This document shows, one piece after another, positions 8,468 to 62,977 of a stretch of DNA of 64,000 bases. The position numbers and the translations under genes are program-made. Where the stretch lies: positions 62,001 through 126,000 of the forward strand of contig NZ_JAFIQX010000002.1 of the NCBI RefSeq assembly GCF_017356035.1, read 5' to 3'. The notes under the pieces are model-generated. The model searched no databases. It was not told the origin of the DNA and saw nothing but the letters and a program-made list of their open reading frames with translations. Positions within the stretch are counted from its first letter, which is position 1, and each line of letters starts with the position of its first letter. The stretch is from Longitalea luteola (GTDB lineage: Bacteria > Bacteroidota > Bacteroidia > Chitinophagales > Chitinophagaceae).

Positions 8468-8813
8468 TAAATACTCTTATCATTAACTGCAACCCATTTC
8501 TTTTTTCTTAAAACGCTAACCGGCAACTGCTTATCAAGGCAGTATTCCCAGTTGACTTATGTCAATAAACTAACGGTTAAAGGGTATAATCCACGCAGTA
8601 CGCTCATTTCAGAATAACTTAGTACAACAAGAAAGTTGCATTTTTAAAAAATTGTGGTAAATTATATAAGGGTTAACTCATACCCTTTGTTTTTGCCTGT
8701 GAATAATTTATTTCACCTTTCGTTTTATTAGAAGGGCTTCTTTAATCCTCCCTGCACTAATCACTTAACCAATATAACTGAATGAAATATTAACCTTTAA
8801 ACGCTTTCCATAT
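8468..8813 (+). other. AT-rich intergenic region before the FIST gene
   Basis: About 346 bp. I see no gene, strong hairpin or exact TAnnTTTG promoter; a TACCCTTTG near 8690 is one base too long to match the consensus. Confidence 0.4.
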
Positions 8814-31030: not shown

Positions 31031-32332
31031 CTATTGTTTCACTTTAATAAAACTTTCGCTATCTACCAGGTATTGGGCATTGGCCGCCACTTCATCTTCT
31101 TCTGACAAACCATTCAATACCTGTATCAAATGATTATTTACAATGCCGGCTTCTATTTTATGCGCAATAAAAGCATCTTCTTTTTTTACAAACACCACTT
31201 TATCGAGCCCGAGTGTAAGCACCGCCTCTTCCGGTAGCCAGCGGGCGCTGCGGGCGCCGGCAAATATTGTGGCCTTCACCTGGCTGCCGATGGGAATACC
31301 ATTATTTGGATTATCGAAGTATACCCGCGCGGTAGCAGTTTTGCTATTGGGCCGGTAAAATGGTTCAATAAAACCAATGGAAGCCCGGAAGTCCTTATCC
31401 GGCACGGTTTCCGGTGTAATGCGCACTTTATCGCCCACTTTAACCATGGCGGCCTGACCTGAAAAAATATTCAACACGGCCCAGGCTTTTGAGGGATTAT
31501 AAATCACAAACAGGTTTTGTCCTTTCGTTACATACATGCCTTCTTTTAATGGCAGCTCTTCGGTGATCAGCGAAACATCTTTCATCCCGGTTTGCGTTTG
31601 CTGCTGCATAGCTTCCGGCGAACTGCTTTCGTGAATATGACCGCTGTAACCACTATAGATAGCCACTGTGAAAACAGGGTTGCCGCTTTTTATAACCTGA
31701 TCCAGTTGCTGGTTACTCATGCCCAGCAAAACCAGTTTTTGACGGGCAGCCGCAATCAGCGTTTTATTCTCAGCATCGTGCTGCAGCAGGAATATCAGGT
31801 TTTGTTGTGCCGTTAACAGTTCAGGACTGTATATATCCATGATCTTTTGCCCTTTGCTCACTTTTTGATACCGGTACTTCACATACAGCTTCTCAATACG
31901 GCCCGAAACATTGGAAGATACGGTGCCCACCTGCCGCGTATCATAAGTAATAAAGCCGTAAGCCGGGATCTCAATTGGCTCATCGCGCAACTGAATATGT
32001 ACGGTAGGTATTGACGAAAGCACATACTGGTTACTGGGACGCAGCAGATCATTTAACGTAATATCGGTGACCTTTTCACCCGATGCTGATTTTTTCACAA
32101 GGTCCATTCCGCAAACCGGACAACTGCCTGGTTTGTCATTGATGATCTGCGGGTGCATGGGGCAGGTATAGGTTTCCTTTGCAGCCACCTCCGTTTTTGG
32201 CTGTTTCGTTTTTGATTCCTGGCAGGCTGTTAATGCAATAAACAAAAAGCAATAGGCAAAAAGCAATAAACTGGCCCTGTTAATTGACCATTGACTACTG
32301 ACCATTGACCGTTTACGATGATGACTACTCAT
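31031..32332 (-). CDS. RND efflux adaptor with heavy-metal-binding domain (CusB-like, 2)
   Basis: A 433-residue adaptor lipoprotein: lipobox IALTAC, HMBD (CPMHPQI..CPVCGMDLV), and an adaptor core (VSSNVSGRIEKLYVKYRY). The window thus has two HMBD adaptors for one pump; the copies are clearly diverged. The coding sequence for the first 35 residues is made of two 7-bp tandem arrays (GGTCAAT-type and TTTATTG/CTTTTTG-type, 32240-32305), so the hydrophobic signal segment LLLFAYCFLFIAL is repeat-derived. An internal ATG at residue 10 is an alternative start. It lies 7 bp after the TolC gene. Confidence 0.88.
   Translation of the reverse strand: MSSHHRKRSMVSSQWSINRASLLLFAYCFLFIALTACQESKTKQPKTEVAAKETYTCPMHPQIINDKPGSCPVCGMDLVKKSASGEKVTDITLNDLLRPSNQYVLSSIPTVHIQLRDEPIEIPAYGFITYDTRQVGTVSSNVSGRIEKLYVKYRYQKVSKGQKIMDIYSPELLTAQQNLIFLLQHDAENKTLIAAARQKLVLLGMSNQQLDQVIKSGNPVFTVAIYSGYSGHIHESSSPEAMQQQTQTGMKDVSLITEELPLKEGMYVTKGQNLFVIYNPSKAWAVLNIFSGQAAMVKVGDKVRITPETVPDKDFRASIGFIEPFYRPNSKTATARVYFDNPNNGIPIGSQVKATIFAGARSARWLPEEAVLTLGLDKVVFVKKEDAFIAHKIEAGIVNNHLIQVLNGLSEEDEVAANAQYLVDSESFIKVKQ
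32240..32305 (-). repeat. Two 7-bp tandem arrays inside an adaptor signal peptide
   Basis: Reading the minus strand: GGTCAAT, GGTCAGT, AGTCAAT, GGTCAAT, then after a short gap TTTATTG, CTTTTTG, CCTATTG, CTTTTTG, TTTATTG. Both families recur elsewhere (60991 and 60833). Confidence 0.7.
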
Positions 32333-50727: not shown

Positions 50728-50912
50728 ATAAAATGTTTTTGAGGTTATTACTTGTTTTTTCTTGTTTAAAGCGGATGGCTTTATGTAGTAATAGAAGGTG
50801 CAAAAGCGGGGAAGTTTATTAATGAAATGCTAAGAAGAAAGGTGTATCTACAGAGCTTAAGCGGAAGAAGAAGGGTATTAGTAATTCGTTAACAGATCAC
50901 CTTTAAACGCTC

Positions 50913-50961
50913 AAGGCAGAAGGCTCAAGGCTGAAGGCAAAAGGCTAAAGGCTGAAGGCAG
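50913..50961 (+). repeat. 7-bp tandem array, GGCnnAA family
   Basis: Seven units in strict 7-bp register: AAGGCAG, AAGGCTC, AAGGCTG, AAGGCAA, AAGGCTA, AAGGCTG, AAGGCAG. The same unit family is found in reverse at 61266-61404. Confidence 0.8.
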
Positions 50962-50992
50962 GGCCGAAACGCAATTCGCGTGCAAATAAAAA

Positions 50993-51012
50993 AACCTGCC
51001 GGCCGGCAGGTT
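50993..51012. repeat. Perfect 20-bp palindrome
   Basis: AACCTGCCGG followed by its exact reverse complement; same ACCTGCC..GGCAGGT core as 20060 and 24895, and with A-rich upstream sequence it could also act as a minus-strand terminator for the thioesterase transcript. Confidence 0.7.
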
Positions 51013-51063
51013 GATGTAATACTCTCGCAGGCGACCTTATTAACAAAATTATTAACTGTATTT

Positions 51064-51168
51064 GCGTTAGGCGCTGCCCGTTGCGCGTTAAGCGTTAGGC
51101 GTTGCGCGTTAGGCGTTGCGCGTTAGGCGTTGCGCGTTAGGCGTTGCGCGTTAGGCGTTCATCGTTAA
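51064..51168 (-). repeat. 7-bp tandem array, GCGTTRS family, running into a gene
   Basis: About fifteen units alternating GCGTTAG and GCGTTGC with few variants (GCGCTGC, CCGTTGC, GCGTTAA, GCGTTCA, TCGTTAA). The last units encode the final codons (M-N-A-stop) of the thioesterase gene that ends at 51151. Confidence 0.85.
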
Positions 51169-51621
51169 GCCTTTTATTCTTTCGGTTAAACCTGCTGGTA
51201 TATCAATATCGGTTACCTTGATGGTTGCCGCAAAATCCATAAAAGCAGCAGGGTGCTCTTTTCTCCGGCCGGTTTTAACATCTATACTGGTGAAGTTCGT
51301 CCACATAATGGCCTTCAGGGTGGTTTGCTTTTCGTCGAACATTAACATTTCTACCAGCACATGCGATTCGCCGAGCTCAATGAGGCGCGATTCAATACAA
51401 ACGATCTCATTATAAAATGCAGGTCGCAGGTATTGTATATCGTGGCGGCGCACTACCCAGGCAATACCCTGTTTATGATATTCAGCTAATGTGATCTGGT
51501 ATGCCTGCTTCAAATGATCTTCCCGGGCATTCAGCATGTAGTCAATATACCGGGCATTATTCAAATGCCCCATAGGATCACAGTCATTAAACCGTATGGT
51601 ATAAAATGTTTTTGGTTGCAT
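51151..51621 (-). CDS. Hotdog acyl-CoA thioesterase (4HBT-like)
   Basis: A 156-residue thioesterase of the YbgC/FadM-like group: FYTIRFNDCDPMGHLNNARY contains the D-P-M-G-H catalytic motif, with WVVRRHDIQYLRPAFYNEIV and IELGESHVLVEM typical of the fold. It hydrolyses acyl-CoA in the cytoplasm. It lies 25 bp after the TetR gene and is probably co-transcribed with it. Its C-terminus (after ERIKGLT) is encoded within a 7-bp tandem array. Confidence 0.85.
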   Translation of the reverse strand: MQPKTFYTIRFNDCDPMGHLNNARYIDYMLNAREDHLKQAYQITLAEYHKQGIAWVVRRHDIQYLRPAFYNEIVCIESRLIELGESHVLVEMLMFDEKQTTLKAIMWTNFTSIDVKTGRRKEHPAAFMDFAATIKVTDIDIPAGLTERIKGLTMNA

Positions 51622-51646
51622 AGTATTTTATTATTGAGCGTAATTA

Positions 51647-52246
51647 TTAGGATTGGTCCATGTATTCAGTTTCCACCCGGGTCTTCAAATTATCCAGTAA
51701 CCTGTTCAATACCGTTACATCATCGAGCACTTTGGCCATCATGATGCCGCCTTCTATTTGCGCAAAAATGAGCTCTGCCTCTTTCTTTACATTCAGGTCG
51801 CTCCTGAACGATCCTTCCTGGATGCCTTTTTTAATGATATGTTGCAGCGATCCCAGCATTTCCTGTAATGCCTGGCGTGCTTTTTTCTTTAAGAACGGAT
51901 ATGCATCATCGGCATCTACAGCTGTATTCATGAGCGGACATCCGCCATCGATAGGTGCCGACACCGTATAATTTTTATAATACTGAAAAACGGTGAGCAG
52001 TTTTTCCACACCGGTCTTTTTGGCCCGCACCTTCTGACCGATATCTTCTTTGAGCTGGTTATAAGAGTATTCAAATGCCAGGGCCGCTATTTCATCCTTG
52101 CTTTCAAAATTACCATACAGGCCGCCCTTTGCCAGGCCGGTTGCTTTCATTATATCACTCATGGAAGTACCGGCATATCCCTTCTTATTGAAAAGGGGCG
52201 CCGCTTTCGCAATTATGAACTCTTTGGTTTTGTCTGCTTTTGTCAC
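51647..52246 (-). CDS. TetR family transcriptional regulator
   Basis: A 199-residue TetR repressor with an N-terminal helix-turn-helix (KEFIIAKAAPLFNKKGYAGT, then SMSDIMKATGLAKGGLYGNF) and a helical ligand domain ending LLDNLKTRVETEYMDQS. I start at GTG 52246: the longer frame back to 52357 crosses a complete promoter and operator and encodes no conserved residues. The predicted transcription start falls at or next to this GTG, so the mRNA may be leaderless. It probably controls itself, the thioesterase and possibly the divergent MATE gene. Confidence 0.88.
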   Translation of the reverse strand: MTKADKTKEFIIAKAAPLFNKKGYAGTSMSDIMKATGLAKGGLYGNFESKDEIAALAFEYSYNQLKEDIGQKVRAKKTGVEKLLTVFQYYKNYTVSAPIDGGCPLMNTAVDADDAYPFLKKKARQALQEMLGSLQHIIKKGIQEGSFRSDLNVKKEAELIFAQIEGGIMMAKVLDDVTVLNRLLDNLKTRVETEYMDQS

Positions 52247-52250
52247 GCTG

Positions 52251-52282
52251 CAAAAATAAACCGATCGGTCTAATTTACAAAA
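52251..52282 (-). promoter_or_regulatory. Promoter of the TetR-thioesterase unit
   Basis: On the minus strand TTTTG (52282-52278), a 19-nt spacer and TATTTTTG (52258-52251) match the Bacteroidota consensus fully. The start codon is 5 nt further on. Confidence 0.65.
52257..52272. promoter_or_regulatory. TetR operator inside the tetR promoter
   Basis: TAAACCGATCGGTCTA, containing the perfect palindrome ACCGATCGGT, is of the classic TetR-family operator type (compare TAGACCGnCCGGTCTA-like sites). It fills the promoter spacer, so bound repressor would block the polymerase. Confidence 0.7.
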
Positions 52283-52367
52283 GAATAATGCATTGCCTTT
52301 TTCGGCCGTGGAAAATCCCTTTTCGTCGTTCAGAATCAATGGCTCATTCTTTTGCAAACAAAAAAAA

Positions 52368-52398
52368 TTTTGGGTGTTGCGGGCATTGTCTACCTTTG
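52368..52398 (+). promoter_or_regulatory. Promoter of the MATE exporter gene
   Basis: TTTTG (52368-52372), 18-nt spacer, TACCTTTG (52391-52398). Leader of about 150 nt to the ATG at 52552. Confidence 0.6.
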
Positions 52399-52551
52399 CT
52401 GCTCTTCAATTATCAGCATATGAAACTTTAAGTTCACGTTCGCTGCAGCATCAGGCATGTTTCACGAACACCTAACTCCCCAATAACATTTTTGTTAGCG
52501 CTTGCTGCGCACCCAATATTATTATTGTCTTATCAGTTAAACAGGATCTGT

Positions 52552-53976
52552 ATGTCGGACCAAACCACTAACGTTGGTACCATGCGTATCAAAACATTTT
52601 TTTCCTTATTCAAACAGGCATTGTCGGGCAAGGAGCAAGACTATACCCAGGGCAGCATTCGCCGTGCTGTGTTCTTACTGGCCGTACCCATGATACTTGA
52701 AATGTGCATGGAGTCGGTTTTTGCGGTAGTAGACATTTTTTTTGTAGGCCGTCTTGGTAAGAATGAGGCCGTATCAACAGTGGTGCTAACCGAATCGGTG
52801 CTAACCATTGTATACTCGCTCGCAATTGGGTTAAGTATGGCTGCAACGGCCATGGTAGCCCGCCGTATTGGCGAAAAGAATCCTGAAGCTGCTTCAAAAG
52901 CCGGGATACAATCATTGTTAGTAGCTCTCTTTGTTACTGCTATTGTCAGCATAGTAGGCGTCATATTTGCGCCGGAGATCCTGAAGCTTATGGGCGCTTC
53001 GCCCGAAACGGTTCGCATAGGCACCAATTATACCCGCATCATTTATGGCGGCAGCGTGGTTATCATGCTGCTGTTCCTGATCAACGGTATTTTCAGAGGA
53101 GCCGGTGACGCGTCAATAGCTATGCGCTCTTTATGGATCGCCAATATTTGTAATATTATCCTGTGCCCGGTATTAATTTACGGAGCAGGTCCTGTTCCGG
53201 CCTTTGGTATTACAGGCGCCGCTATGGCTACCACCATTGGCCGCGGCATTGGCGTACTGTACCAGATCTACCATTTATTCAGTGGCAAACGGATCATCAA
53301 GATCAGGTTGAAGGACTTTATGCCCGACTGGCCAATCATAAGGTCCATTTCCAATATTGCCTGGACGGGCACTGCGCAGTTCCTGATCGCATCTGCCAGC
53401 TGGATGGTACTGGCCCGTATTATGACGGAATTTGGTGATCCCGCTGTGGCAGGTTATGGTGTGGCCATCAGGCTGATCATGTTCTTCCTGTTACCAGCAT
53501 GGGGTATGAGCAATGCTGCTGCCACGCTGGTTGGCCAAAACCTGGGCGCCCAGCAACCGGAAAGGGCTGAACAGTCAGTATGGAGCACAGCCAGGTATAA
53601 CACCATCTTCATGATCTTTGTAACCCTGGTATTCCTGCTGTTTGCGCAACCTATCGTGGCATTCATGAACAAGGATGTTACCGTTGAGGCTTATGCCGTC
53701 AGGGCCTTACGGATTGTAAGCCTGGGTTATATTTTTTATGGCATAGGGATGGTTGTTACCAATGCGTTTAACGGCGCCGGCGACACCAAAACTCCTACGC
53801 TCATCAATATCTTTGGCTTCTGGTTATTCCAGGTGCCGCTGGCCTTATTGCTGGCTTTGTTCTTCAAGCTTGGTCCCGATGGCGTGTTCATTGCCATTGT
53901 ACTGGCCGAAACAGGGATCTCCATTGCCGGTATCATCATTTTCAAAAAAGGAAAATGGAAGAAGATCAAAGTATAA
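52552..53976 (+). CDS. MATE family multidrug exporter
   Basis: A 474-residue membrane protein with 12 predicted helices in two halves, cation-coupled export of drugs or metabolites. Family segments: FLLAVPMILEMCMESVFAVV, DIFFVGRLGKNEAVSTVVL, GAGDASIAMRSLWIANI and the second-half repeat GAGDTKTPTLINIFGFWLF. I start at ATG 52552 (MSDQTT), which has an AGGA 7 nt upstream; a TTG at 52492 is unlikely. It is divergent from the TetR gene, whose operator lies 280 bp away. Confidence 0.9.
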   Translation: MSDQTTNVGTMRIKTFFSLFKQALSGKEQDYTQGSIRRAVFLLAVPMILEMCMESVFAVVDIFFVGRLGKNEAVSTVVLTESVLTIVYSLAIGLSMAATAMVARRIGEKNPEAASKAGIQSLLVALFVTAIVSIVGVIFAPEILKLMGASPETVRIGTNYTRIIYGGSVVIMLLFLINGIFRGAGDASIAMRSLWIANICNIILCPVLIYGAGPVPAFGITGAAMATTIGRGIGVLYQIYHLFSGKRIIKIRLKDFMPDWPIIRSISNIAWTGTAQFLIASASWMVLARIMTEFGDPAVAGYGVAIRLIMFFLLPAWGMSNAAATLVGQNLGAQQPERAEQSVWSTARYNTIFMIFVTLVFLLFAQPIVAFMNKDVTVEAYAVRALRIVSLGYIFYGIGMVVTNAFNGAGDTKTPTLINIFGFWLFQVPLALLLALFFKLGPDGVFIAIVLAETGISIAGIIIFKKGKWKKIKV

Positions 53977-53992
53977 AAGAAACTGTTTACAG

Positions 53993-54012
53993 AGGCTCCC
54001 TGCGGAGCCTTT
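53993..54012 (+). terminator. Terminator of the MATE gene
   Basis: AGGCTCC-CTGC-GGAGCCT hairpin followed by TT, 16 bp after the stop. Confidence 0.65.
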
Positions 54013-54070
54013 GTTGTTTACACGGAATACCTTTTGCTATTATCAGTTAATTCACTAAGTTACAATCAGC

Positions 54071-55108
54071 ATGAAGCAGCAATTACCTAACAATGCCATC
54101 AGGCAGGTACTTATATTGGCTACCATCATTACGCTTGGTATTGTACTGTTCAATCAATTGAGAAGTTTTATTCCGGCATTTTTGGGGGCTTATACTTTGT
54201 ATGTGTTGCTTCGCAAATGGATGTTCATTCTGCAAGGCCGGTATAAATGGAAAAAAAGCCTTTGCGCGGCCCTGCTCATGCTGCTGTCATTTCTCATCAT
54301 CCTGTTGCCGATCTTCCTGGTGGTGAATATGCTTACCTCGAAGATCGCCTTTGCCATGGAGCATTCCCAGGAGGTGCTTGCCAGCCTGCAGGCGTTTGTT
54401 GAAAAACTGGAAGCCCAGTACAAGGTGCAGATACTTACGACTACCAACCTGGAGAAGATAACCGCGTGGGGCGGCAATACGGTTCCCAAGATCCTCGGCG
54501 CTACCTTCAATACCCTTACCGGCATTATCATCATGTATTTCATTTTATATTTTATGCTGGTAGACGGTCGCAAGATGGAATCGAACTTCTACGACTGGGT
54601 TCCTTTGAAAGATGAAAATACCCTGATGTTGCGAAAAGACCTTAACAGCATGGTATATTCGAATGCGATCGGAATTCCGCTCATTGCCATTATACAAGGG
54701 ATCTTCGGCCTTATTGGCTACCTGATCCTTGGGGTAGAGGAACCGTGGTTCTGGTTTGTGATCACCTGTATCACCAGTATGTTGCCCGTGGTGGGCGCTG
54801 CTTTGGCCTATGTGCCGGTGGCCCTGTTGTTCTTTGCCGCCGGTAGCAATGGTAAAGGTCTTATTATGCTTTTATACGGTTTTGGCGTAATCGGTTCGGT
54901 CGATAACCTGTTCCGTTTCTGGGTGCTGAAGCGGATCGGCGATGTACATCCCCTCATTACCGGCTTTGGCGTTATTATTGGGGTAGGCCTGTTTGGGTTT
55001 ATTGGTCTCATATTCGGCCCCATCCTGATATCACTTTTCCTCGTGCTCCTCAAGATCTACGCTTCGGAGTTTAACATCGAAAAAAGGAGCGAAGGCAATA
55101 GCAAATAA
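54071..55108 (+). CDS. AI-2E family transporter (TqsA/PerM type)
   Basis: A 345-residue membrane protein with about eight helices and the family pattern: N-terminal helices (IRQVLILATIITLGIVLF), a soluble segment (KLEAQYKVQILTTTN), and a C-terminal cluster with GIFGLIGYLILGVEEPWFWF and SVDNLFRFWVLKRIGDVHPL. Members export small molecules such as autoinducer-2 or act as ion/solute exporters. Substrate not predictable. It stands alone. Confidence 0.87.
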   Translation: MKQQLPNNAIRQVLILATIITLGIVLFNQLRSFIPAFLGAYTLYVLLRKWMFILQGRYKWKKSLCAALLMLLSFLIILLPIFLVVNMLTSKIAFAMEHSQEVLASLQAFVEKLEAQYKVQILTTTNLEKITAWGGNTVPKILGATFNTLTGIIIMYFILYFMLVDGRKMESNFYDWVPLKDENTLMLRKDLNSMVYSNAIGIPLIAIIQGIFGLIGYLILGVEEPWFWFVITCITSMLPVVGAALAYVPVALLFFAAGSNGKGLIMLLYGFGVIGSVDNLFRFWVLKRIGDVHPLITGFGVIIGVGLFGFIGLIFGPILISLFLVLLKIYASEFNIEKRSEGNSK

Positions 55109-55306
55109 CTGTGTTACAAATACTTCTATCAGTAAGTAATTTCACGTACCGGCAAATACGCCGATATATATACTACATTGAAAATTTCGGAAAACACGGC
55201 TTTTCAGCCTTAAAATGCGAAAATATTTTTCGCAATGCTTCGTTCTATGGCGGTATTGTTTTTAATCAATTAGTTGCAAACCGCTTTTATATACGTTTTA
55301 ATTCCT

Positions 55307-56089
55307 ATGAAACGGTCACATAAGTCAATGTCGTTTGGAGTGTTGTTGTGTTTTTTGGCAGTGTCGCCGGTGGTATCATCCGGCACCGGCAGTGATGAGA
55401 AAACACCAGTTGTAGTAAGCGCACCTCGTGCCGCCGTTCCGGTTAACACAAGCACCGCAGTAGTTACAAGATCGGCCGCAGAAATGCTGGCGGCAGAAGC
55501 CAGGGATCTGTACGGTTCAATGAACCTGAAAAAATTCGGCCTGTCGATAAAAGCTTTTGAGTATGCGCTGAAAGGTTATAAAAACCTGGTGGAGCGCGGA
55601 AAAGTAGTGAAGGACCAGGTGCTTTCCATCTGCGATTTCAGTCAGTCGTCGCGCAGAAAAAGGTTTTATGTGATTGATATGGCCAAAAAGAAAGTGCTTA
55701 TCAATACCTGGGTAGCGCATGGCCGCAACTCTGGTGGTGAATATGCCCGTTCCTTCTCAAACAGCCCCGAATCGCATAAGAGCAGTCTCGGTTTTTATGT
55801 TACCGGTAATACTTATTACGGCAGTCATGGACTGGCATTAAAAATTGAGGGACTGGAAAAGAACATCAATGATAAAGCCGACGAGCGGAATATTGTTATT
55901 CACGGTTCAAACTATGTTGGCGCCAGCTTTTTAAGCCGCAGCCCCTTCAACGGCCGCAGCTATGGATGTCCGGCGCTGCCACAGCAGGAAACCGGAAAAA
56001 TCATTCAAAAGATCAAGGACGGCACCTGCCTGTTTATTTACCATCCCACTAAAAGTTATATCCAGAAGTCAAAAGTGCTGAATGGCTAG
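55307..56089 (+). CDS. Murein L,D-transpeptidase catalytic domain protein (paralogue 2)
   Basis: A 260-residue secreted protein: signal peptide (SFGVLLCFLAVSPVVSSG), a spacer rich in V, A, P and T, then a YkuD_2 domain with KRFYVIDMAKKKVL, AHGRNSGGE, SSLGFYVTGNTY, H199 (IVIHGSNYV) and catalytic C221 (GRSYGCPAL). It is a clear paralogue of the protein at 40297-41103, sharing the SLGFYVTGNTY block and the GR-S-x-GCPA site. Start at ATG 55307 gives a clean signal peptide. Confidence 0.85.
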   Translation: MKRSHKSMSFGVLLCFLAVSPVVSSGTGSDEKTPVVVSAPRAAVPVNTSTAVVTRSAAEMLAAEARDLYGSMNLKKFGLSIKAFEYALKGYKNLVERGKVVKDQVLSICDFSQSSRRKRFYVIDMAKKKVLINTWVAHGRNSGGEYARSFSNSPESHKSSLGFYVTGNTYYGSHGLALKIEGLEKNINDKADERNIVIHGSNYVGASFLSRSPFNGRSYGCPALPQQETGKIIQKIKDGTCLFIYHPTKSYIQKSKVLNG

Positions 56090-56171
56090 ACCTCGCTTCA
56101 TCTGGTTTGAAGCCCGCTTAAGGGAATCCTATTCGGGCCGGTCCCCATCCAGGATGGTACCCTTTTAAAAA

Positions 56172-56831
56172 CTACTGCAACCACATCGCCAGCAGCTGGC
56201 AAAGGGCGCCGGCAAAAAGGCCCAGGTAAATTTCGCGTTGGCTATGATCAGAAACGATCAGGCGGCTGGTACAAACCACACCGGCTATTAATATGGCGAA
56301 GGAAAAATAAACGCCGGTTACATCCTGGTTGTTAAATGCCTGTAACAGGAAGAACACCGCCAGCCCACCCACACCAATGGCATGCATGCTTACCTTGGTA
56401 ACAATATTCAGGAACCAGGCAGCACAAACAGCCAGAAAAGATCCCAATAAGAAATCGAGGAAAGGTTGCGGATTATCCTTCTGACTGTGGAATACATACC
56501 AGGCCCAGAAGTAAAAGATCATCGCGGCGGCATAGGGAATGATCCTTTCTTTTTGCGTACGCAGTTGCATGGATTGCACCAACTTCAGCCGCCACATCAG
56601 GAACACCGCAAAACCCGGGATCACCGCCGTGTTGAAGAACACGGAAATGAGCCTGAAAATTTTGTATTTATGATTTATACCGGCAAATGCATACGGATCG
56701 ATGAACAACAAGAATGCGGTTACATATGCCGGTAAAAACAACGGATGAAAAATACAGGAAAAGAAATGAGCCAATGCCCTGATGAGCGCTGGTTGTTTAG
56801 GAGGCAGGGCAGTAAGCGGTGTTGTTGACAT
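56172..56831 (-). CDS. PAP2-like integral membrane protein
   Basis: A 219-residue protein with six or seven hydrophobic segments. The end (CTSRLIVSDHSQREIYLGLF) resembles the SR..-SDHS-H region of PAP2-type phosphatases, and KVSMHAIGVGGLAVFF echoes the middle motif, but the first catalytic K..R..P motif is not clear. It may be an inactive or divergent relative. ATG 56831 follows the upstream rpoN stop by 14 bp; co-transcription is likely. Confidence 0.7.
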   Translation of the reverse strand: MSTTPLTALPPKQPALIRALAHFFSCIFHPLFLPAYVTAFLLFIDPYAFAGINHKYKIFRLISVFFNTAVIPGFAVFLMWRLKLVQSMQLRTQKERIIPYAAAMIFYFWAWYVFHSQKDNPQPFLDFLLGSFLAVCAAWFLNIVTKVSMHAIGVGGLAVFFLLQAFNNQDVTGVYFSFAILIAGVVCTSRLIVSDHSQREIYLGLFAGALCQLLAMWLQ

Positions 56832-56845
56832 AATCAAAATTGCTA

Positions 56846-58336
56846 TTACAGTTCTTTCCGTAACCTGGCTACCGGAATATTCAATTGTTCGCGGTATTTG
56901 GCTACGGTTCGGCGTGCAATATTATAACCTTTTTCCTGCAATAGCTCGGTGAGCTTTTCGTCGCTCAGGGGTTTCTTCTTGCTTTCGCCTTCAATGAGAT
57001 CGCTGAGTATTTTCTTTACTTCCCGCGTAGATACTTCTTCGCCGCTGTCGGTACTGAGCGATTCGCTAAAGAAGAATTTCAGCCGGTAAGTACCAAACTC
57101 GGTTTGAACAAATTTGCTGTTGGCTACCCGGCTCACCGTGGAGATATCGAGACCTGTGCGTTCGGCAATATCTTTCAGGATCATGGGCTTCAGCGTGGTT
57201 TCATCGCCGGTAAGGAAAAAGTCGCGCTGGTAGCTCATAATGGTTTCCATTACACTGCTCAGCGTATGCTGCCGCTGTTTAATGGCATCGATGAACCACT
57301 TGGCTGCGTCGATCTTCTGTTTAATGAACAGGATCGCTTCTTTTTGGCGCTTATCTTTTTTGCTGCCTTTATCGTACTCGCGCAGCATATCGCGATAGCC
57401 TTCGCTGATGCGCAGGTCGGGCGCGTTCTTCGAATTAAGGGTAAGTTCCAGCTTGCCGCCGTTGTTATAAACAAAGAAGTCGGGCACCACATAACTTTCA
57501 GCCTTGTTGATATCGGCATGATTACCGCCGGGTTTAGGGGTAAGCCGAATGATCTGGCTGATCACTTCTTTCAACGCATCGTCGTCGAGGTTAAGGCCGC
57601 GTTGAATTTTATCGTAGTGCTTTTTTGTAAACTCATCAAAGTAATCGGTGAGTACATCAATTGCTTTATCTACATTCTTGCCTTCCCGCTGCTGGCGGTA
57701 CAATTGCAATAACAGGCATTCCTGCAGGTCGCGGGCGCATACCCCCGGCGGATCAAACTGTTGAACCAGCCTGATCACCTTCTCTACTTCCTGTTCATTG
57801 GTTTCAATATTCTGCCTGAATGCAAGGTCGTCAACAATAGCGGCAGTTTCCCGGCGCAGGTAGCCATCATCGTCAATGCTGCCAACTATCTGCTCTGCTA
57901 TCCTGCGTTCATTATCACTCATCTTTAACATGCCCAGCTGGCCGAGCAGGTGTTCATGGAAAGATGTTTCTATTTTATAAGGAACTATTTTTTTGTCATC
58001 CATTTCGGGATAATTATCATCCCGCAATTTGTAATCAGCAATTTCGCCATCTTCATCTCCTACGTATTCGCTAATGTCGATATTGTCATATTCATCTTCG
58101 CTGCCGTCTACATCAAAATCCTCTTCATCACTGCTATCGAATTCATCTTTTGTTTCATTATCGTATTGCTCGTCATGGTTCTCCTCCGACAATTCCAAAG
58201 CCGGATTCTCTTCAAGTTCCTCTTTGATCCGTTCTTCCAAATTAGCCGTAGGCACCTGCAACAGTTTCATCAGCTGAATCTGTTGTGGAGAAAGTTTTTG
58301 AAGTAGCTTTTGCTGTAAACTTTGACTCAATGCCAT
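56846..58336 (-). CDS. rpoN: RNA polymerase sigma-54 factor RpoN
   Basis: A 496-residue sigma-54. Region I is Q/L-rich (SQSLQQKLLQKLSPQQIQLM), region II is long and strongly acidic (SDEEDFDVDGSEDEYDN), then the core-binding domain and the C-terminal DNA-binding domain with the RpoN box ARRTVAKYRE near the end. It needs AAA+ activators, none of which is in this window. I start at ATG 58336; a TTG at 58345 is less likely. Confidence 0.96.
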   Translation of the reverse strand: MALSQSLQQKLLQKLSPQQIQLMKLLQVPTANLEERIKEELEENPALELSEENHDEQYDNETKDEFDSSDEEDFDVDGSEDEYDNIDISEYVGDEDGEIADYKLRDDNYPEMDDKKIVPYKIETSFHEHLLGQLGMLKMSDNERRIAEQIVGSIDDDGYLRRETAAIVDDLAFRQNIETNEQEVEKVIRLVQQFDPPGVCARDLQECLLLQLYRQQREGKNVDKAIDVLTDYFDEFTKKHYDKIQRGLNLDDDALKEVISQIIRLTPKPGGNHADINKAESYVVPDFFVYNNGGKLELTLNSKNAPDLRISEGYRDMLREYDKGSKKDKRQKEAILFIKQKIDAAKWFIDAIKQRQHTLSSVMETIMSYQRDFFLTGDETTLKPMILKDIAERTGLDISTVSRVANSKFVQTEFGTYRLKFFFSESLSTDSGEEVSTREVKKILSDLIEGESKKKPLSDEKLTELLQEKGYNIARRTVAKYREQLNIPVARLRKEL

Positions 58337-58365
58337 GTGCGTCAATATTTTAATCAGTTAGTCGC

Positions 58366-58394
58366 CAAAATTAATTTCAAAAAATCCGCGGCAA
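58366..58394 (-). promoter_or_regulatory. Promoter of rpoN
   Basis: On the minus strand TTG (58394-58392), an 18-nt spacer and TAATTTTG (58373-58366). Leader of about 25 nt. Confidence 0.6.
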
Positions 58395-58440
58395 CCACAA
58401 AAATCAGGCCGTAAATTTACAGACAAATGTAATCAACGTT

Positions 58441-58818
58441 GTGCAACGATTTTATAAAATTATTGTCTTTGCGGCTTTTTGTTTTGAATCAGAGGCAGTT
58501 TTAGCTCAAAACCAGGTAAATATAACATCTGGTAAGGCGTCGTTTACACCGGAAAAAGTGGCCGCGGTTTCTATGTATGAACTTCCTGAAAAGTTATTAA
58601 CAGTTGGTTTTCATATACTAAAGGAAACGTCAATGGCCGGTCCGCCTGTAATTCCGGTGCGGCCGGCTGTTGCCACTATAGGTAACAATTTATATACGAT
58701 TCAGTTTGGCTTTTTTTGTAAAAAGGAGCTGCAGTTTGAAAAAACCACCCGGATTCCGCTTCGATTCAGGTTGGGATCACTTGACTATGTAAACAGGCTG
58801 GAAGGAAAACATCCTTAG
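58441..58818 (+). CDS. Small secreted hypothetical protein
   Basis: A 125-residue protein from a GTG start, with a signal peptide ([20 protein letters not shown]) and a mature part that includes [20 protein letters not shown] and [20 protein letters not shown]. No family recognised. Its stop codon overlaps the first unit of a 7-bp tandem array (AGTTCAC and so on). Confidence 0.65.
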
Positions 58819-58865
58819 TTCACAGTACAAAGTTTACAGTTCAAAGTTTACAGTTAGTCAGTTGA
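58817..58865 (+). repeat. 7-bp tandem array, AGTTYAM family
   Basis: Units in 7-bp register beginning at the stop codon: AGTTCAC, AGTACAA, AGTTTAC, AGTTCAA, AGTTTAC, AGTTAGT, CAGTTGA. The same family occurs reversed at 61120-61208. Confidence 0.7.
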
Positions 58866-58939
58866 TCGTTATGAATCGTGAAGAGGCTTATGATTGTTTA
58901 CAGTAATAAGCGAATTTGCGCCGCCGGAAATTCCTGGCC

Positions 58940-58960
58940 GTCTGCCGTCTGCCGTCTGCC
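58940..58960. repeat. Short 7-bp array GTCTGCC
   Basis: Three perfect copies of GTCTGCC, immediately past the 3' end of the lipoprotein gene that ends at 58984 (minus strand). Confidence 0.65.
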
Positions 58961-58983
58961 GTTGCTGACGATTGCCGATTCGG

Positions 58984-59514
58984 TTACTTTCTCACGATCT
59001 TATTAATAGCAGTTACATCGTTTTGGAAATTGCTCAATGTTTGGAGGGCTTCCGAGGGAGTGCTTTCTTTAAAATATTTCTGCAGCCATAGTTTAGAGCT
59101 ATCGGGCTCGCGCATAGCCCGGTACTGATCTTTTAATGCATACGATTCTGCAAATACAGCGCCCGCTTCGTACATCCTGCGCAGGGTTAAATATAATGTA
59201 TCGCCGGTTGTGCTGTTAATGATGAGGCTATCGACCATTTCTTTTTTGTTGCCCGCCATCTCGGCTTTGGTTAAAGCCATTTGCGTTTGCATGATCCAGG
59301 AGGTGGCATCGAGGAAAATGATCGACAGGTCATTGTTTAAGTAGTGGGTCTTCCTGAGGCTGTCGACGCGGTCCTGCGCTTTTCTGGCAGAATCACTCAC
59401 GTTACCGGCTACCGCATCACTTTGTGTATCCTGGCTTTTACAACTGGCGAATAGCAGGATGGGGCCGAGGGATATGAACAGTCCTGTTTTTATAGCGATA
59501 ACGGTTCTTTTCAT
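58984..59514 (-). CDS. Lipoprotein of unknown function
   Basis: A 176-residue lipoprotein (MKRTVIAIKTGLFISLG, lipobox LLFASC) with a long helical body (QDRVDSLRKTHYLNNDLSII, AVFAESYALKDQYRAM, SNFQNDVTAINKIVRK). It has no recognisable domain; a helical adaptor or structural role is possible. Start at ATG 59514; the upstream in-frame start adds only 4 residues. Confidence 0.7.
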   Translation of the reverse strand: MKRTVIAIKTGLFISLGPILLFASCKSQDTQSDAVAGNVSDSARKAQDRVDSLRKTHYLNNDLSIIFLDATSWIMQTQMALTKAEMAGNKKEMVDSLIINSTTGDTLYLTLRRMYEAGAVFAESYALKDQYRAMREPDSSKLWLQKYFKESTPSEALQTLSNFQNDVTAINKIVRK

Positions 59515-59537
59515 CGTTAAATACACTGTATTAAAAT

Positions 59538-59582
59538 GCGTTTAGAAGATGATCTTCTATTGAGAGACCGTCTTCTAAACGC
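59538..59582 (-). terminator. Hairpin after the aminotransferase gene
   Basis: Perfect 12-bp arms GCGTTTAGAAGA/TCTTCTAAACGC, 21-nt loop, and inside it a competing palindrome AGAAGAT-G-ATCTTCT (59544-59558). On the minus strand it is followed by ATTTTAAT. It is either a terminator or a switchable hairpin before the lipoprotein gene. Confidence 0.6.
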
Positions 59583-59604
59583 AGGCCTGTTCCTAAAATT
59601 ATTA

Positions 59605-60822
59605 TCAGGCTGATATCTTTTGTGCAGCCAGTACTTTTTTAACCACGCTTACGATCTTTTCGCCTTTCTCTTTCATTTGCTGTTCTGTAGGCACAAGGGA
59701 GATCTGGGTGGTGATGCCGCGGCTCATGACAGCATCACTGGCAGAAAAGTCTTTATTGGCTTGTTGCAAAATGGCTGCTTTATAGTCGGGATGTAAGGCA
59801 TTGAGGGTAATGCTTTTCTTCAGGTGATCCCATTTGCGGATGTAATGCCAGTTATGATCGAACCAGTAAAAATTACCGCCCCAGCTGTTCTGGGCCTTTA
59901 ATTCTGCCACTACAGCCTGGGTAAGCTCAGCGGTAGGCAGGAACCAGCTTAAGAAAGTGCAGCTGTCGCCGGCTTCATCCAGCACACGGCGGAAACTGAT
60001 TTCGGGCACCTGCGCGAGGATGGCTTTTAATTGTGCATGGCCGGCGCGTTGTTTGGCCAGAAATTCATCCAGGCGGTTGAACTGTGCCAGCCCCACTGCC
60101 GCATGCAGTTCAGAAATGCGGAAATTATAACCCAGGAATGGGTGCAGATCGGCCCCGCGGTCAACACCTTTGTGGTCGTGGCCATGATCACTGTAACCGT
60201 CGCTGTTGATGTACACATCTTCTCGGTTGGTGACAATAGCACCGCCTTCACCGCAGGTAACTGTTTTTACAAAGTCGAAGGAATAAGTGCCGGCATCGCC
60301 GATGGTTCCGAGGTATTTTCCTTTATAGGTGGCGCCAAAGCTCTGGCAGGCGTCTTCAAGTAATAACAGATTATGTTCTTTGCAGATCTGTTGCAGTGCA
60401 TCCATGTCGGCCGAGGCGCCGCACATATGCACAGGCATTATACATTTTGTTTTGGGGGTAATGGCTTTGCGAACCGCATCGGGGTTCAGGGTGAGTGTAT
60501 CGTCAACATCCACGAGCACGGGAACGGCGCCTACACTGATGAGGGCCTCAAAGCTGGCCACAAACGTAAAGGTGGGCATGATCACTTCATCGCCATAGCC
60601 TATGCCCAGTGCGCTCAGCGCGGTGGTAAGGGCAGTGGTACCGCTGGAAACCAGGTGGGTAAACTGGCAACCAAATTTTTTGCTGATGGCAGCTTCCAGT
60701 TCTTTCGCTTTCCAGATCCCTTTACGGGCTCCATCGAAACCAAATCGCATCAGGATACCGGTTTCCATTACATCATTTACATGTTTGCGTTCATCTGCGC
60801 CAAAAAGTTCAAAGCCAGGCAT
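59605..60822 (-). CDS. DegT/DnrJ/EryC1/StrS aminotransferase
   Basis: A 405-residue PLP enzyme of the sugar aminotransferase family. PLP residues: LVSSGTTALTTAL (phosphate loop), D157 (LLEDACQSFG) and the Schiff-base K186 (TYSFDFVKTVTCGEGG). Such enzymes transfer an amino group to keto-sugars for polysaccharide or glycan biosynthesis. It stands alone, without sugar-nucleotide genes nearby, so the substrate is open. Its leader (about 100 nt) contains a 7-bp array (60833-60860). Confidence 0.92.
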   Translation of the reverse strand: MPGFELFGADERKHVNDVMETGILMRFGFDGARKGIWKAKELEAAISKKFGCQFTHLVSSGTTALTTALSALGIGYGDEVIMPTFTFVASFEALISVGAVPVLVDVDDTLTLNPDAVRKAITPKTKCIMPVHMCGASADMDALQQICKEHNLLLLEDACQSFGATYKGKYLGTIGDAGTYSFDFVKTVTCGEGGAIVTNREDVYINSDGYSDHGHDHKGVDRGADLHPFLGYNFRISELHAAVGLAQFNRLDEFLAKQRAGHAQLKAILAQVPEISFRRVLDEAGDSCTFLSWFLPTAELTQAVVAELKAQNSWGGNFYWFDHNWHYIRKWDHLKKSITLNALHPDYKAAILQQANKDFSASDAVMSRGITTQISLVPTEQQMKEKGEKIVSVVKKVLAAQKISA

Positions 60823-60832
60823 ATTGAATTTG

Positions 60833-60860
60833 TTTATGGTTTATTGTTTCTTGTTTTTCG
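60833..60860 (+). repeat. 7-bp tandem array in aminotransferase leader
   Basis: TTTATGG, TTTATTG, TTTCTTG, TTTTTCG in 7-bp register; same family as the TTTATTG/CTTTTTG units at 32240-32275. Confidence 0.6.
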
Positions 60861-60926
60861 TTACCCCTGAGCAGCGTTGATCTAAACCGCTCTCAATTAA
60901 CGTTAAATGTCTAAATTATTGGACAG

Positions 60927-60934
60927 CAAAGGTA
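60927..60934 (-). promoter_or_regulatory. Candidate -7 box of the aminotransferase gene
   Basis: TACCTTTG on the minus strand, exact TAnnTTTG match, about 105 nt before the ATG; the -33 element is not clear. Confidence 0.4.
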
Positions 60935-60990
60935 GAGATTTCAGCCAAAAGTGGGGGGCCGGTTTGTATAAAACGAGGGGACCAATAGGC

Positions 60991-61039
60991 AATGGTCAAT
61001 GGTGAATGGTGAATGGTCAATGGTGAATGGTCAATGGTG
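60991..61039 (+). repeat. 7-bp tandem array, GGTSAAT family
   Basis: Seven units AATGGTC or AATGGTG in perfect 7-bp register. Same family as the GGTCAAT units inside the adaptor gene at 32283-32305. Confidence 0.85.
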
Positions 61040-61119
61040 AGCGGCTCGCGGCAAGTGAGCAGTATAAGCACCTGGGTACAACTCACATAACCCACGACCT
61101 GAATAACTTAAGAACTAAT

Positions 61120-61208
61120 AACCCAGGAACCAGGAACATGAACTATGAACTGTATACTTTGAACTGTAAACTAGGAACTTTGAACTTTAAACTTTGAACC
61201 TTAAACTA
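61120..61208. repeat. 7-bp tandem array, reverse AGTTYAM family
   Basis: About twelve units such as GAACTGT, AAACTAG, GAACTTT, AAACTTT, GAACCTT, mostly in 7-bp register with one 6-bp slip; reverse complement of the array at 58817. Confidence 0.75.
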
Positions 61209-61212
61209 AAAA

Positions 61213-61234
61213 AGGCTCCCTATGCAGGAAGCCT
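61213..61234 (-). terminator. Terminator of the GHL10 gene
   Basis: AGGCTtCC/GGgAGCCT hairpin followed by T6 on the minus strand. Confidence 0.7.
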
Positions 61235-61265
61235 CTTTTCTTTATCTTTAATCCTTTTGAATTTT

Positions 61266-61404
61266 CTTGTGCCTTGTGCCTTGTGCCTTGTGCCTTGTGC
61301 CTTGTGCCTTGTGCCTTGTGCCTTGTGCCTTGTGCCTTGTGCCTTGTGCCTTGTGCGTTGTGCCTTGTGCCTTTCGCTTTGGGCCTTGAGCCTTTCGCCT
61401 TAAG
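61266..61404 (-). repeat. Longest 7-bp tandem array, GGCnnAA family
   Basis: About twenty units: a run of near-identical CTTGTGC (one CTTGTGC to GTTGTGC-type variant), then CTTTCGC, TTTGGGC, CTTGAGC, CTTTCGC, CTTAAGC, all in 7-bp register, ending within a few bases of the GHL10 stop codon. On the minus strand these read GGCACAA, GGCGAAA, GGCTCAA, GGCTTAA, the family seen at 50913. Confidence 0.9.
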
Positions 61405-61405
61405 C

Positions 61406-62977
61406 CTAATTATTAGCCATGGTATTCGGTTCTTTACCCAGCGTCCAGCCCAGCCTGTCGACCTTTACGGCTTCCAGTTTTATAGGCCAGTTCGGATAGG
61501 GTTTACTTTCGTTATTCTCTTCATCCAGGCAGGTTACATAGAACCGTACAAACTTGCGATCGTTGCGCAGCGGGGCAAAAAACACACAGCTATCGCTCGA
61601 ATCAAAACGGCTGCCGATCAGTTGGGCATTATAAAAATTGTTGTTATTGAATTCCTCGTTATAGCAGGCATATAAGCGGTAGCATTTGATCTTTTTATTT
61701 GTAGCACCTGTTTTAATTACTTCTATCCGCAGGGCGGTATCTACCGGCTTTATAGAAACTACTTCGGGGCTTTCGGGCAGCAGGGAATCGATCCAGGGCA
61801 TGGGCGGTATCATCGCCGGCTCCTTATAATAATTATAGCGCAGGCTGTCGTTCCAGCCAAGGGGGTTCTTTACAAATGACTGGGTGCTGAAGTAAATAGC
61901 GCCCTGGATCTCAGGGTATTTACGCATAGCCTGGATCTGCCGGGGCAGCTGGGTCTTATCGCGCCAGGCTGCATTGGTTCCGGCTTTAAAAATGCCAAGG
62001 CCAATGTAGCAATGTTTGCCGTAGCTATGTTTTGCCCACCAGTCGAGCAACACTTCATAGGCTGCCCGCGGATGGCCAAATTCAAAATAGATCTGGGGAG
62101 CTACATAGTCTATCCAGCCGCTTTTCAACCAAAGCAGGATATCGGCATACAGCTCGTTGTAATTGGTCATCGATTTGGTATCACTGCCTTCAGGATCCTG
62201 GCTGCGGTTTTTCCAGATGGCGAAGGGCGAAATACCGAAACGGCAGTACCGGTTTTCTTCTTTTATCGCAGTGCTCAGCTTTAAAATGATGGAGTCGGTA
62301 TTGCTACGCCGCCAGTCGGCCAGGCTTAAGCCATTGCCATATTTTTCGTAGGACTCTTTATCAGGGAACTCTTTGCCTGAGATGGGGTATGGGTAGAAGT
62401 AATCGTCGAAATGAACAGCATCTATATCGTAGCGGTTTACGATATCGCGGATCACATTCACCACATAGTTTTGCGCCTCTTTATTGCCCGGGTCGAAATA
62501 GCGGGTGCCGCCATAACTCAAAAACCATTCGGGATGCGTGCGGGTGATGTGGTTTGCGCTAATAGAAGATTTTCCGATCGCAAACTCGGCCCGGTAGGGG
62601 TTGCACCAGGCGTGGAATTCCATGCCCCGTTTATGTGCTTCTTCTACCATGAAGGCCAGCGGGTCATAGTAAGGCGTTGGCGCCTTACCCTGCTTACCGG
62701 TAAGCCACTGGCTCCAGGGCTCGTATTGCGACGGATAAAATGCATCGGCGCATGGGCGCACCTGTACGATAACGGCATTCAGGCCATTACGTTTATGCAT
62801 TTCAAGCAGATTTATGTATTCTGCTTTTTGACTTTCCGTATTAAAATTTCCACGTGAAGGCCAGTCGATATTATCTACTGTAGCAATCCACGCCGCCCTA
62901 AATTCATATTTAGGTTGCGCTACTACATTAAACACTAAAAAACAGGCCACTACCATCAGGCATGTAGTTCTTTTCAT
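61406..62977 (-). CDS. Glycosyl hydrolase-like GHL10 protein
   Basis: A 523-residue exported protein with a signal peptide (CLMVVACFLVFNVVAQ) and a GHL10 (DUF187-type) TIM-barrel: EFRAAWIATVDNIDWPS at the first strand, VHFDDYFYPYP and RFGISPFAIWKN at later active-site strands, and YVAPQIYFEFGHP. A C-terminal beta domain follows (about 400-515). Members are thought to hydrolyse glycosidic bonds, but few are characterised. The gene ends in the long 7-bp array. Confidence 0.88.
   Translation of the reverse strand: MKRTTCLMVVACFLVFNVVAQPKYEFRAAWIATVDNIDWPSRGNFNTESQKAEYINLLEMHKRNGLNAVIVQVRPCADAFYPSQYEPWSQWLTGKQGKAPTPYYDPLAFMVEEAHKRGMEFHAWCNPYRAEFAIGKSSISANHITRTHPEWFLSYGGTRYFDPGNKEAQNYVVNVIRDIVNRYDIDAVHFDDYFYPYPISGKEFPDKESYEKYGNGLSLADWRRSNTDSIILKLSTAIKEENRYCRFGISPFAIWKNRSQDPEGSDTKSMTNYNELYADILLWLKSGWIDYVAPQIYFEFGHPRAAYEVLLDWWAKHSYGKHCYIGLGIFKAGTNAAWRDKTQLPRQIQAMRKYPEIQGAIYFSTQSFVKNPLGWNDSLRYNYYKEPAMIPPMPWIDSLLPESPEVVSIKPVDTALRIEVIKTGATNKKIKCYRLYACYNEEFNNNNFYNAQLIGSRFDSSDSCVFFAPLRNDRKFVRFYVTCLDEENNESKPYPNWPIKLEAVKVDRLGWTLGKEPNTMANN

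Follow-up and report, generated by a model that had tools for sequence, protein, structure and literature searches.

Intergenic heptad and octad repeat arrays in Longitalea luteola: an inherited step, a changeable unit, and a strand that mostly leaves the nearer gene

Short tandemly repeated repetitive (STRR) sequences with heptanucleotide units are mentioned for filamentous cyanobacteria (PMC4692102, PMC2670836; all papers given here by accession are drawn on in part), and three heptamers are listed for Calothrix (PMC4692102). Rehm (2015) reported heptamers in Xanthomonas (GGGAATC) and Nostoc (GGGGAYT) that are degenerate (GGGANTN), mostly intergenic, and closer to the gene from which the repeat strand reads away, whatever the direction of that gene (PMC4692102). 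MacGregor (2015) described TAACTGA heptamers in Beggiatoaceae, cyanobacteria, and five Bacteroidetes; most stand in forward orientation ahead of start codons, and one Flexibacter case is reversed after a stop codon (PMC4679880). Arrays of GGGACCG (four copies) and MTYCTGA (five copies), fixed in copy number, were proposed as regulatory elements in Geobacter metallireducens (PMC2700814). The idea that period 7 relates to polymerase contacts goes back to Mrazek (2007), as cited in PMC4692102 and PMC4679880. Longer repeats are described as normally or weakly over-represented in PMC4060949, the consulted part of which names neither Niastella nor Chitinophaga. Here, we analyzed degenerate tandem arrays of 7-bp units from a 64,000-nucleotide stretch of the Longitalea luteola genome (contig NZ_JAFIQX010000002.1; C22:62001-126000 of genome G000 in our numbering), hereafter called the window, and we followed them through the genome and into other bacteria.

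We scanned 1.246 Mb of the genome, read in stretches out of 7.30 Mb in 43 contigs, for matches at lags of 2 to 30 bp, with first-order Markov shuffles as controls. This sample contained 143 arrays of period 7 (p7) and 90 of period 8 (p8), together with 10 of period 14 and 3 of period 21 (p14 and p21). Periods 3, 4, 6, 9, 11, 12, 13, 15, 17, 20, 25, 26, 27, and 29 yielded 1 to 5 arrays each, with a single array at 6 and at 9, and no other period exceeded 5. One shuffle of the whole sample gave no array, and three shuffles of its first 864 kb gave one in total. Since periods 7 and 8 dominate the spectrum, with p8 at 63% of the frequency of p7, the step is locked to 7 and 8 and not to 7 alone. 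This result qualifies the 7-bp register proposed in a preliminary description of the window: 7 is the most common period and 6 and 9 are almost absent, but period 8 is frequent as well. By simple scaling, the whole genome would hold some 1,400 arrays. An assembly artifact is an unlikely source, because arrays also occur in a congener assembled as one contig of 9.03 Mb (G005), 200 kb of which contain 7 p7 and 7 p8 arrays. Other congeners varied: in samples of 40 kb each, G001 had no array, and G004 and G009 had one p7 array apiece. Terrimonas yielded 23 p7 and 5 p8 arrays in 200 kb, and Fischerella yielded 48 p7, 9 p8, 9 p9, and 5 p10 arrays in 194 kb. No p7 or p8 array was found in 100 kb of E. 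coli K-12.

Several arrays with other steps were also observed. G005 spacers hold looser arrays with a TCAAC core and a step of 8 to 9 (period 9 in one spacer). Arrays of another, distinct family, TTTGGTTCTTGTGA / TTTGGTTCTTGTAAT, with a 14- to 15-bp step, are clustered at L038 (∼8450-8800) and L010 (∼3210-3420). At G001:C13:317843-318461 and G006:C156:114516-114902, regular match spacing points to higher-order units of five heptads (35 bp) and six heptads (42 bp) in tracts of hundreds of bases.

The arrays are almost wholly intergenic. Only 6 of the 246 arrays in the sample were genic according to our own gene caller, which recovered 45 of 48 annotated stop codons and predicted no extra genes in the E. 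coli stretch. Within the first 864 kb, 4 of 104 p7 arrays (plus one at a stretch end) and none of 55 p8 arrays were genic. We then added 0.54 Mb of G007, the closest relative compared (78 to 88% identity in syntenic blocks). Among the 362 intergenic arrays of the two genomes, the nearest gene edge lay within 12 bp and was a stop-codon end in 117 cases and a start-codon end in 27. In the window, about 3 of 9 arrays from the lag scan stand at a stop codon (51079 and 61266 by gene calls, 58817 by the list of open reading frames [ORFs]), and the array at 60832 adjoins a start codon. The statement of the preliminary description that most arrays begin at or just after a stop codon is thus too strong.

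We next consider the orientation of the arrays. A family-specific strand was assigned to each array with a 5-mer model trained on the arrays that lie no more than 20 bp from a 3' gene end (leave-one-out tests gave 62/69 for p7 and 60/61 for p8), and an array was scored inward when this strand reads from the nearer gene into the spacer and outward when it reads the opposite way. Near genes, the arrays mostly point away from the nearer gene at stop- and start-codon ends alike. At 5' ends, where the model had not been trained, 28/31 p7 arrays within 20 bp and 29/30 at 21 to 60 bp were inward, as were 10/10 and 8/9 p8 arrays, respectively. At 21 to 60 bp from 3' ends, the inward counts were 13/17 (p7) and 11/14 (p8). 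Beyond 60 bp, the bias was faint or absent for p7 (30/45 at 5' edges and 16/40 at 3' edges) and for p8 at 3' edges (11/23), but was retained for p8 at 5' edges (13/13). The 5' end of the inward strand lay within 12 bp of the gene behind it in 79/232 p7 and 59/130 p8 arrays, and its 3' end lay as close to the gene ahead in 5/232 and 3/130. Among the 79 and 59 close arrays, 62 and 52 stand at 3' ends, counts that are partly circular because the model was trained on such arrays, and 17 and 7 stand at 5' ends.

Gene edges in array-free spacers were also scored, and 5' edges read inward in 426/662 cases (64%) with the p7 model and 389/662 (59%) with the p8 model; the values for 3' edges were 256/446 and 223/446. 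Arrays within 60 bp of 5' edges were inward in 57/61 cases for p7 (Fisher test against array-free edges, 5.8e-7) and 18/19 for p8 (0.0013). As array-free 5' edges are biased inward and arrays are more so, leader composition explains part of the polarity but not all of it. When a single array per spacer side was kept, 36/43 p7 and 16/17 p8 arrays were inward with the model taken from L. luteola to L. luteola, and 33/43 and 16/17 from G007 to L. luteola. From L. luteola to G007, the counts were 13/18 (P = 0.096) and 1/1. Within 20 bp of 3' ends, G exceeded C on the inward strand in 46/69 p7 and 59/61 p8 arrays, and the keto fraction exceeded 0.5 in 35/69 and 58/61. For p7, family identity thus predicts orientation better than composition does. 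A first orientation test over all flanking genes, like a purine-strand test, had shown no consistent bias; both are superseded because they pooled near and far edges and because, for TAATTAGC, the core is nearly palindromic. The replication strand showed no bias, with the inward strand on plus and minus in 33 and 31 cases on one side of the C22 skew minimum and in 12 and 11 on the other.

Polarity was also evaluated in other genomes with models of the host genus trained on both edge types. Within 60 bp, p7 arrays of Terrimonas were inward in 11/11 cases at 3' and 5/5 at 5' ends (p8, 1/2 and 1/2), and those of Fischerella in 12/18 and 14/16 (p8, 3/3 and 2/2). G005 gave 3/5 and 1/1 for p7 and 3/4 and 3/3 for p8. 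In a cross-phylum test of GGTSAAT, 69 of 85 arrays were evaluable and 29 were genic. Within 20 bp, 18 arrays were inward and 1 outward at 3' ends, a figure that may be inflated because GGTGAAT contains TGA and so ends ORFs; at 5' ends, 9 were inward and 4 outward, and beyond 20 bp the counts were 5 and 3. Separately, short GGTCAAT arrays at loci of Prevotella and other Bacteroidales (L095, L100, L103-L105, L113, L115, and L123) were scored as genic by a simple ORF rule and may be coding or a gene-calling artifact.

Comparison with G007 showed that the step is inherited and the unit much less so. Across 317 orthologous spacers, arrays were present in both genomes in 38, in L. luteola only in 35, in G007 only in 18, and in neither in 226. 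In thirty slots, both genomes carried an array no farther than 40 bp from the same gene edge; 16 of these slots were p7 in both, 12 were p8 in both, and 2 were mixed, and none of 10,000 permutations reached this agreement of 28/30. Unit similarity at orthologous p7 slots averaged 0.63 versus 0.47 for nonorthologous arrays, with 5/16 above the 95th percentile, and at p8 slots 0.80 versus 0.70, with 2/12 above it. Slots therefore keep their period but often not their unit family, and between the two species arrays vary in length, family, and presence.

Growth of arrays from one end was considered and received no support. Proximal and distal identities in 28 orthologous array pairs were 0.76 and 0.80 (P = 0.18), and unit homogeneity showed no gradient along the strand (P = 0.97 for p7 and 0.38 for p8). 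Identity at the 30 slots dropped from 0.70 to 0.54 away from the gene, which may be alignment decay; at array-free edges it stayed at 0.63 to 0.69 for 3' ends and fell from 0.75 to 0.67 for 5' ends. Where an array-bearing spacer faced an array-less one, 33/82 inner flanks were matched, only 11 of them usable, with medians of 43 versus 40 bp, a number too small to show what the arrays replace.

The p7 families include AAGGCnn, AACGCnn, AATGGTs, AGTTyAm, GTTTnTn, GGTTrCC, GGTTnCA, and AATCGnn, and the p8 families include TRATnTGm, GATTTnnn (AAATCyCr reversed), AGTTATTC, and AGTTrACC. As proposed from the window, several families recur genome-wide in both orientations. L. luteola and G007 have distinct array dialects: AAGGC/AACGC families account for 39/169 p7 arrays in the former (1.246 Mb) versus 1/63 in the latter (0.54 Mb), and GATTTnnn arrays number 36 versus 3 in the same samples. 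The fixed core with variable positions noted in the window is real but moderate, since sorted column entropies in 68 p7 arrays ranged from 0.07 to 1.33 bits, compared with 0.16 to 1.25 for evenly spread deviations. Transitions and transversions within p7 arrays stood at 293:443, and at 4-fold sites at 4059:5541. A templated origin, argued from the transversion-rich variation, was rejected, as background 4-fold sites are equally transversion rich. Some arrays switch family in register (for example, L010 13280-13333, L016 7923-7989, and L019 9879-9961), and higher-order repeats of 14 and 21 bp occur inside arrays.

Among 80 GGTSAAT loci of many phyla, 83 arrays were read, 58 pure and 25 with C and G units mixed. 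Three tandem GGTSAAT units occur in 11 of 29 genomes (L. luteola and 28 relatives) and not in the congeners G004 and G005. Three units of the octamer TRATKTGM occur in 16 of 117 genomes of the family, L. luteola included, and the reversed control pattern had no match. At L029 (∼8600-9085; G000:C22:254600-255085), opposed GTTTATG and AACCACA-like arrays alternate, with most spacers of 45 to 48 bp; they lie in a locally duplicated block. With regard to a mobile element with fixed ends, whose copies would share flanks at different loci, local duplications with shared spacers were observed.

In the window itself, Tandem Repeats Finder located period-7 (or 14, 21) arrays at 32235-32271, 32283-32310, 50904-50961, 51064-51159, 58817-58855, 58937-58962, 60830-60856, 60990-61040, 61123-61212, and 61266-61394, so the arrays named in the preliminary description exist. 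A lag-7 scan gave 7 segments at the score cut and 0 in each of 100 Markov shuffles. The orientation model scored 7/9 window arrays inward; the two outward ones are at 60832 and at 58817, the latter beside an ORF overlooked by our gene caller. No match to Rfam was found in the whole window at gathering cutoffs. The leftmost array (32232..32271, minus strand; GCAATAAACAAAAA-like on the plus strand) overlaps the N-terminal end of a HlyD-type ORF (31031-32332, minus). Next to it are four ATTGACC units (32283..32310, minus; GGTSAAT family in reverse), and the orthologous spacer in G007 also holds an ATTGACC array. An AAGGCnn array (50906..50960, plus), for which orthologous spacers of G007 and five other congeners showed none at the score cut, and an AACGCnn array (51064..51173, minus; GCGTTnn on plus), which overlaps the 3' end of a thioesterase-like ORF, stand in opposite orientation on either side of a terminator-like GC-rich inverted repeat whose T-run lies on the minus strand (50993..51012).

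The AGTTyAm array at 58817..58855 (plus) starts within the stop codon of the overlooked ORF (58441-58818), which encodes 125 amino acids without a Pfam match, and it is followed by 3.7 units of GCCGTCT (58937..58962, minus). A GTTTnTn array (60830..60862, plus) lies 9 bp from the start codon of a DegT/DnrJ aminotransferase gene (59605-60822, minus); it is present in G006 and G003 and degenerate in G007. The same spacer holds an AATGGTs array with C and G units intermixed (60983..61040, plus), an AGTTyAm array (61123..61212, minus; GAACTTn on plus), and an AAGGCnn array (61266..61407, minus; GCCTTGT on plus) that extends into the stop codon of a GHL10 gene (61406-62977, minus). Between the last two are an A-run, an inverted repeat GGCTCC..GGAAGCC, and a T-run (61209..61240), terminator-like by eye. 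An A-run with a similar inverted repeat of varying sequence was seen by eye in this DegT/GHL10 spacer in 8/8 congeners, and the arrays beside the hairpin vary (GCCTTGT in L. luteola, GCCTATT in G007, others or none elsewhere).

We interpret these elements as polar intergenic heptad and octad simple-sequence arrays of the STRR or long simple sequence repeat (SSR) kind. Whole units (7, 14, or 21 bp; 8 or 16 bp) would be gained and lost through slipped-strand synthesis or unequal recombination, as suggested by the higher-order repeats inside arrays, and the replication or repair machinery may favor a step of 7 to 8 bp. The unit sequence would be overwritten as an array exchanges sequence in register with others elsewhere in the genome, and this could produce the dialects, the in-register family changes, and the orthologous slots of equal period and often different family that we observed. 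Coding sequence is almost free of arrays, and those near genes mostly keep one orientation to the border; this orientation could stem either from selection on a border function or from a directional array-forming process. We give this combination of slippage and exchange about an even chance of being correct. Several points weigh against it. Families could converge rather than exchange, ordinary mutation could supply the variants since the ratio of transitions to transversions in arrays is close to that at 4-fold sites, no homogeneity gradient was seen along the strand for p7 or p8, and polarity follows from neither slippage nor exchange.

The main rival, which we consider possible but clearly less probable, is that the arrays are selected polar signals at gene borders, acting at the DNA or RNA level, for example on the termination or degradation machinery. 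One orientation rule at both gene ends and across many families, the inward excess of arrays over array-free 5' edges, and the like geometry published for Xanthomonas and Nostoc (PMC4692102) are consistent with such a signal. Where a −7-like TANNTTTG lies between array and start codon, 18 arrays are inward and 4 outward, although a stricter −33/−7 pattern was found for 2 arrays only, one of each orientation. A single RNA-level reading is contradicted by the geometry, as the gene-leaving strand is RNA sense at 3' ends and antisense at 5' ends. In addition, p7 units are mostly not conserved at orthologous slots, and in 53 of the 91 orthologous spacers with arrays, just one of the two genomes carries them.

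Neutral slippage alone, with an independent birth at each locus, appears improbable. Purifying selection by itself could confine such arrays to noncoding DNA, and array variants do resemble background substitutions, but recurrent families, genome dialects, and polarity all strain this explanation. The preliminary description had judged that simple slippage does not account well for units with some positions fixed and others variable, and we agree to the extent that independent slippage is insufficient by itself, because the same families turn up at many loci and vary from one genome to another.

The arrays might also be scars of end healing, in which 3' break ends in spacers would be extended away from each gene with 7- to 8-nucleotide units, much as telomere repeats are laid out, before being rejoined. 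Such a process would give arrays that lead away from the gene at both gene edges, inverted pairs within a spacer, a short step of constant size, and degenerate units; we nevertheless hold it to be quite improbable. Slightly less credible still are frame-rotating stop arrays, in which the 7- or 8-bp step carries a stop triplet through the three frames and ends translation. Several TRATnTGm arrays open with the stop codon itself, and p8 arrays from −30 to 12 bp of a stop codon contain stops in three frames in 45/54 cases on the sense strand versus 16/54 on the antisense strand. In contrast, p7 arrays in the same test show no such excess (15/64 versus 24/64), the same polarity is seen before start codons, and periods of 10 or 11 would serve equally yet are absent or rare. 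A stop-codon function was thus rejected as a general cause, being supported solely for p8 arrays beside stop codons. G-quadruplex elements, as proposed for the Xanthomonas and Nostoc heptamers, have a published position and polarity that match (PMC4692102) and might be formed by a few AATGGGC and GGGATTT arrays, but the consensus, by eye, of AAGGCnn, AACGCnn, AATGGTs, AGTTyAm, GGTTrCC, and TRATnTGm lacks a GGG run, which makes this explanation extremely improbable.

Inheritance of the period with replacement of the sequence constrains any explanation of bacterial heptad repeats. So does border polarity across unlike units, seen in Bacteroidota, more weakly in a cyanobacterium, and, by published data, in Xanthomonas. 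Both constraints weigh against G-quadruplexes, stop codons, and pure slippage as general causes, and the old puzzle "why seven?" becomes testable in culturable bacteria.

Repetitive extragenic palindromic sequences and bacterial interspersed mosaic elements are extragenic palindromes of 20 to 40 bp, often in inverted pairs near gene ends. The arrays described here share the extragenic site and the inverted pairs but are direct repeats of 7 to 8 bp. Phase-variable contingency repeats sit in coding frames or promoter spacers and switch expression; few of the present arrays are genic. The preliminary description knew of no account for this group. None was found for Chitinophagaceae in a search without most subscription journals, but the TAACTGA heptamers include five Bacteroidetes (PMC4679880). 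In the part of that work consulted, those heptamers resemble ours in period, intergenic site, and an orientation consistent with the polarity rule, and differ in being one sequence with related heptamers rarely repeated. TAACTGA with period 7 was absent from our genome sample, where the nearest family is the octamer TAACTGAA (reverse of AGTTATTC). The Geobacter metallireducens elements, as far as the consulted text goes, are likewise dispersed families of short heptad arrays, but with a fixed copy number. As reported for the Xanthomonas and Nostoc heptamers, the repeat strand leaves the nearer gene at either gene end, as it does here, but one G-rich family was studied per genome; L. luteola instead has many families without G-runs and an octamer class. 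Cyanobacterial STRRs share period 7, an intergenic site, and more than one heptamer per genome, and the likeness suggested by the preliminary description is borne out by the 48 p7 arrays of Fischerella, whose inward bias is similar in tendency. They differ from the present arrays in that the latter have a Bacteroidota host and a strong p8 class with little else, whereas Fischerella also has p9 and p10 arrays. Altogether, the L. luteola arrays belong to the heptameric STRR or long-SSR class, with tandem 7-bp units that are mostly intergenic and a favored period of 7. Their kind is known from other bacteria; what is distinctive is that the step is inherited, the unit is often swapped, and near genes the strand tends to leave the nearer gene.

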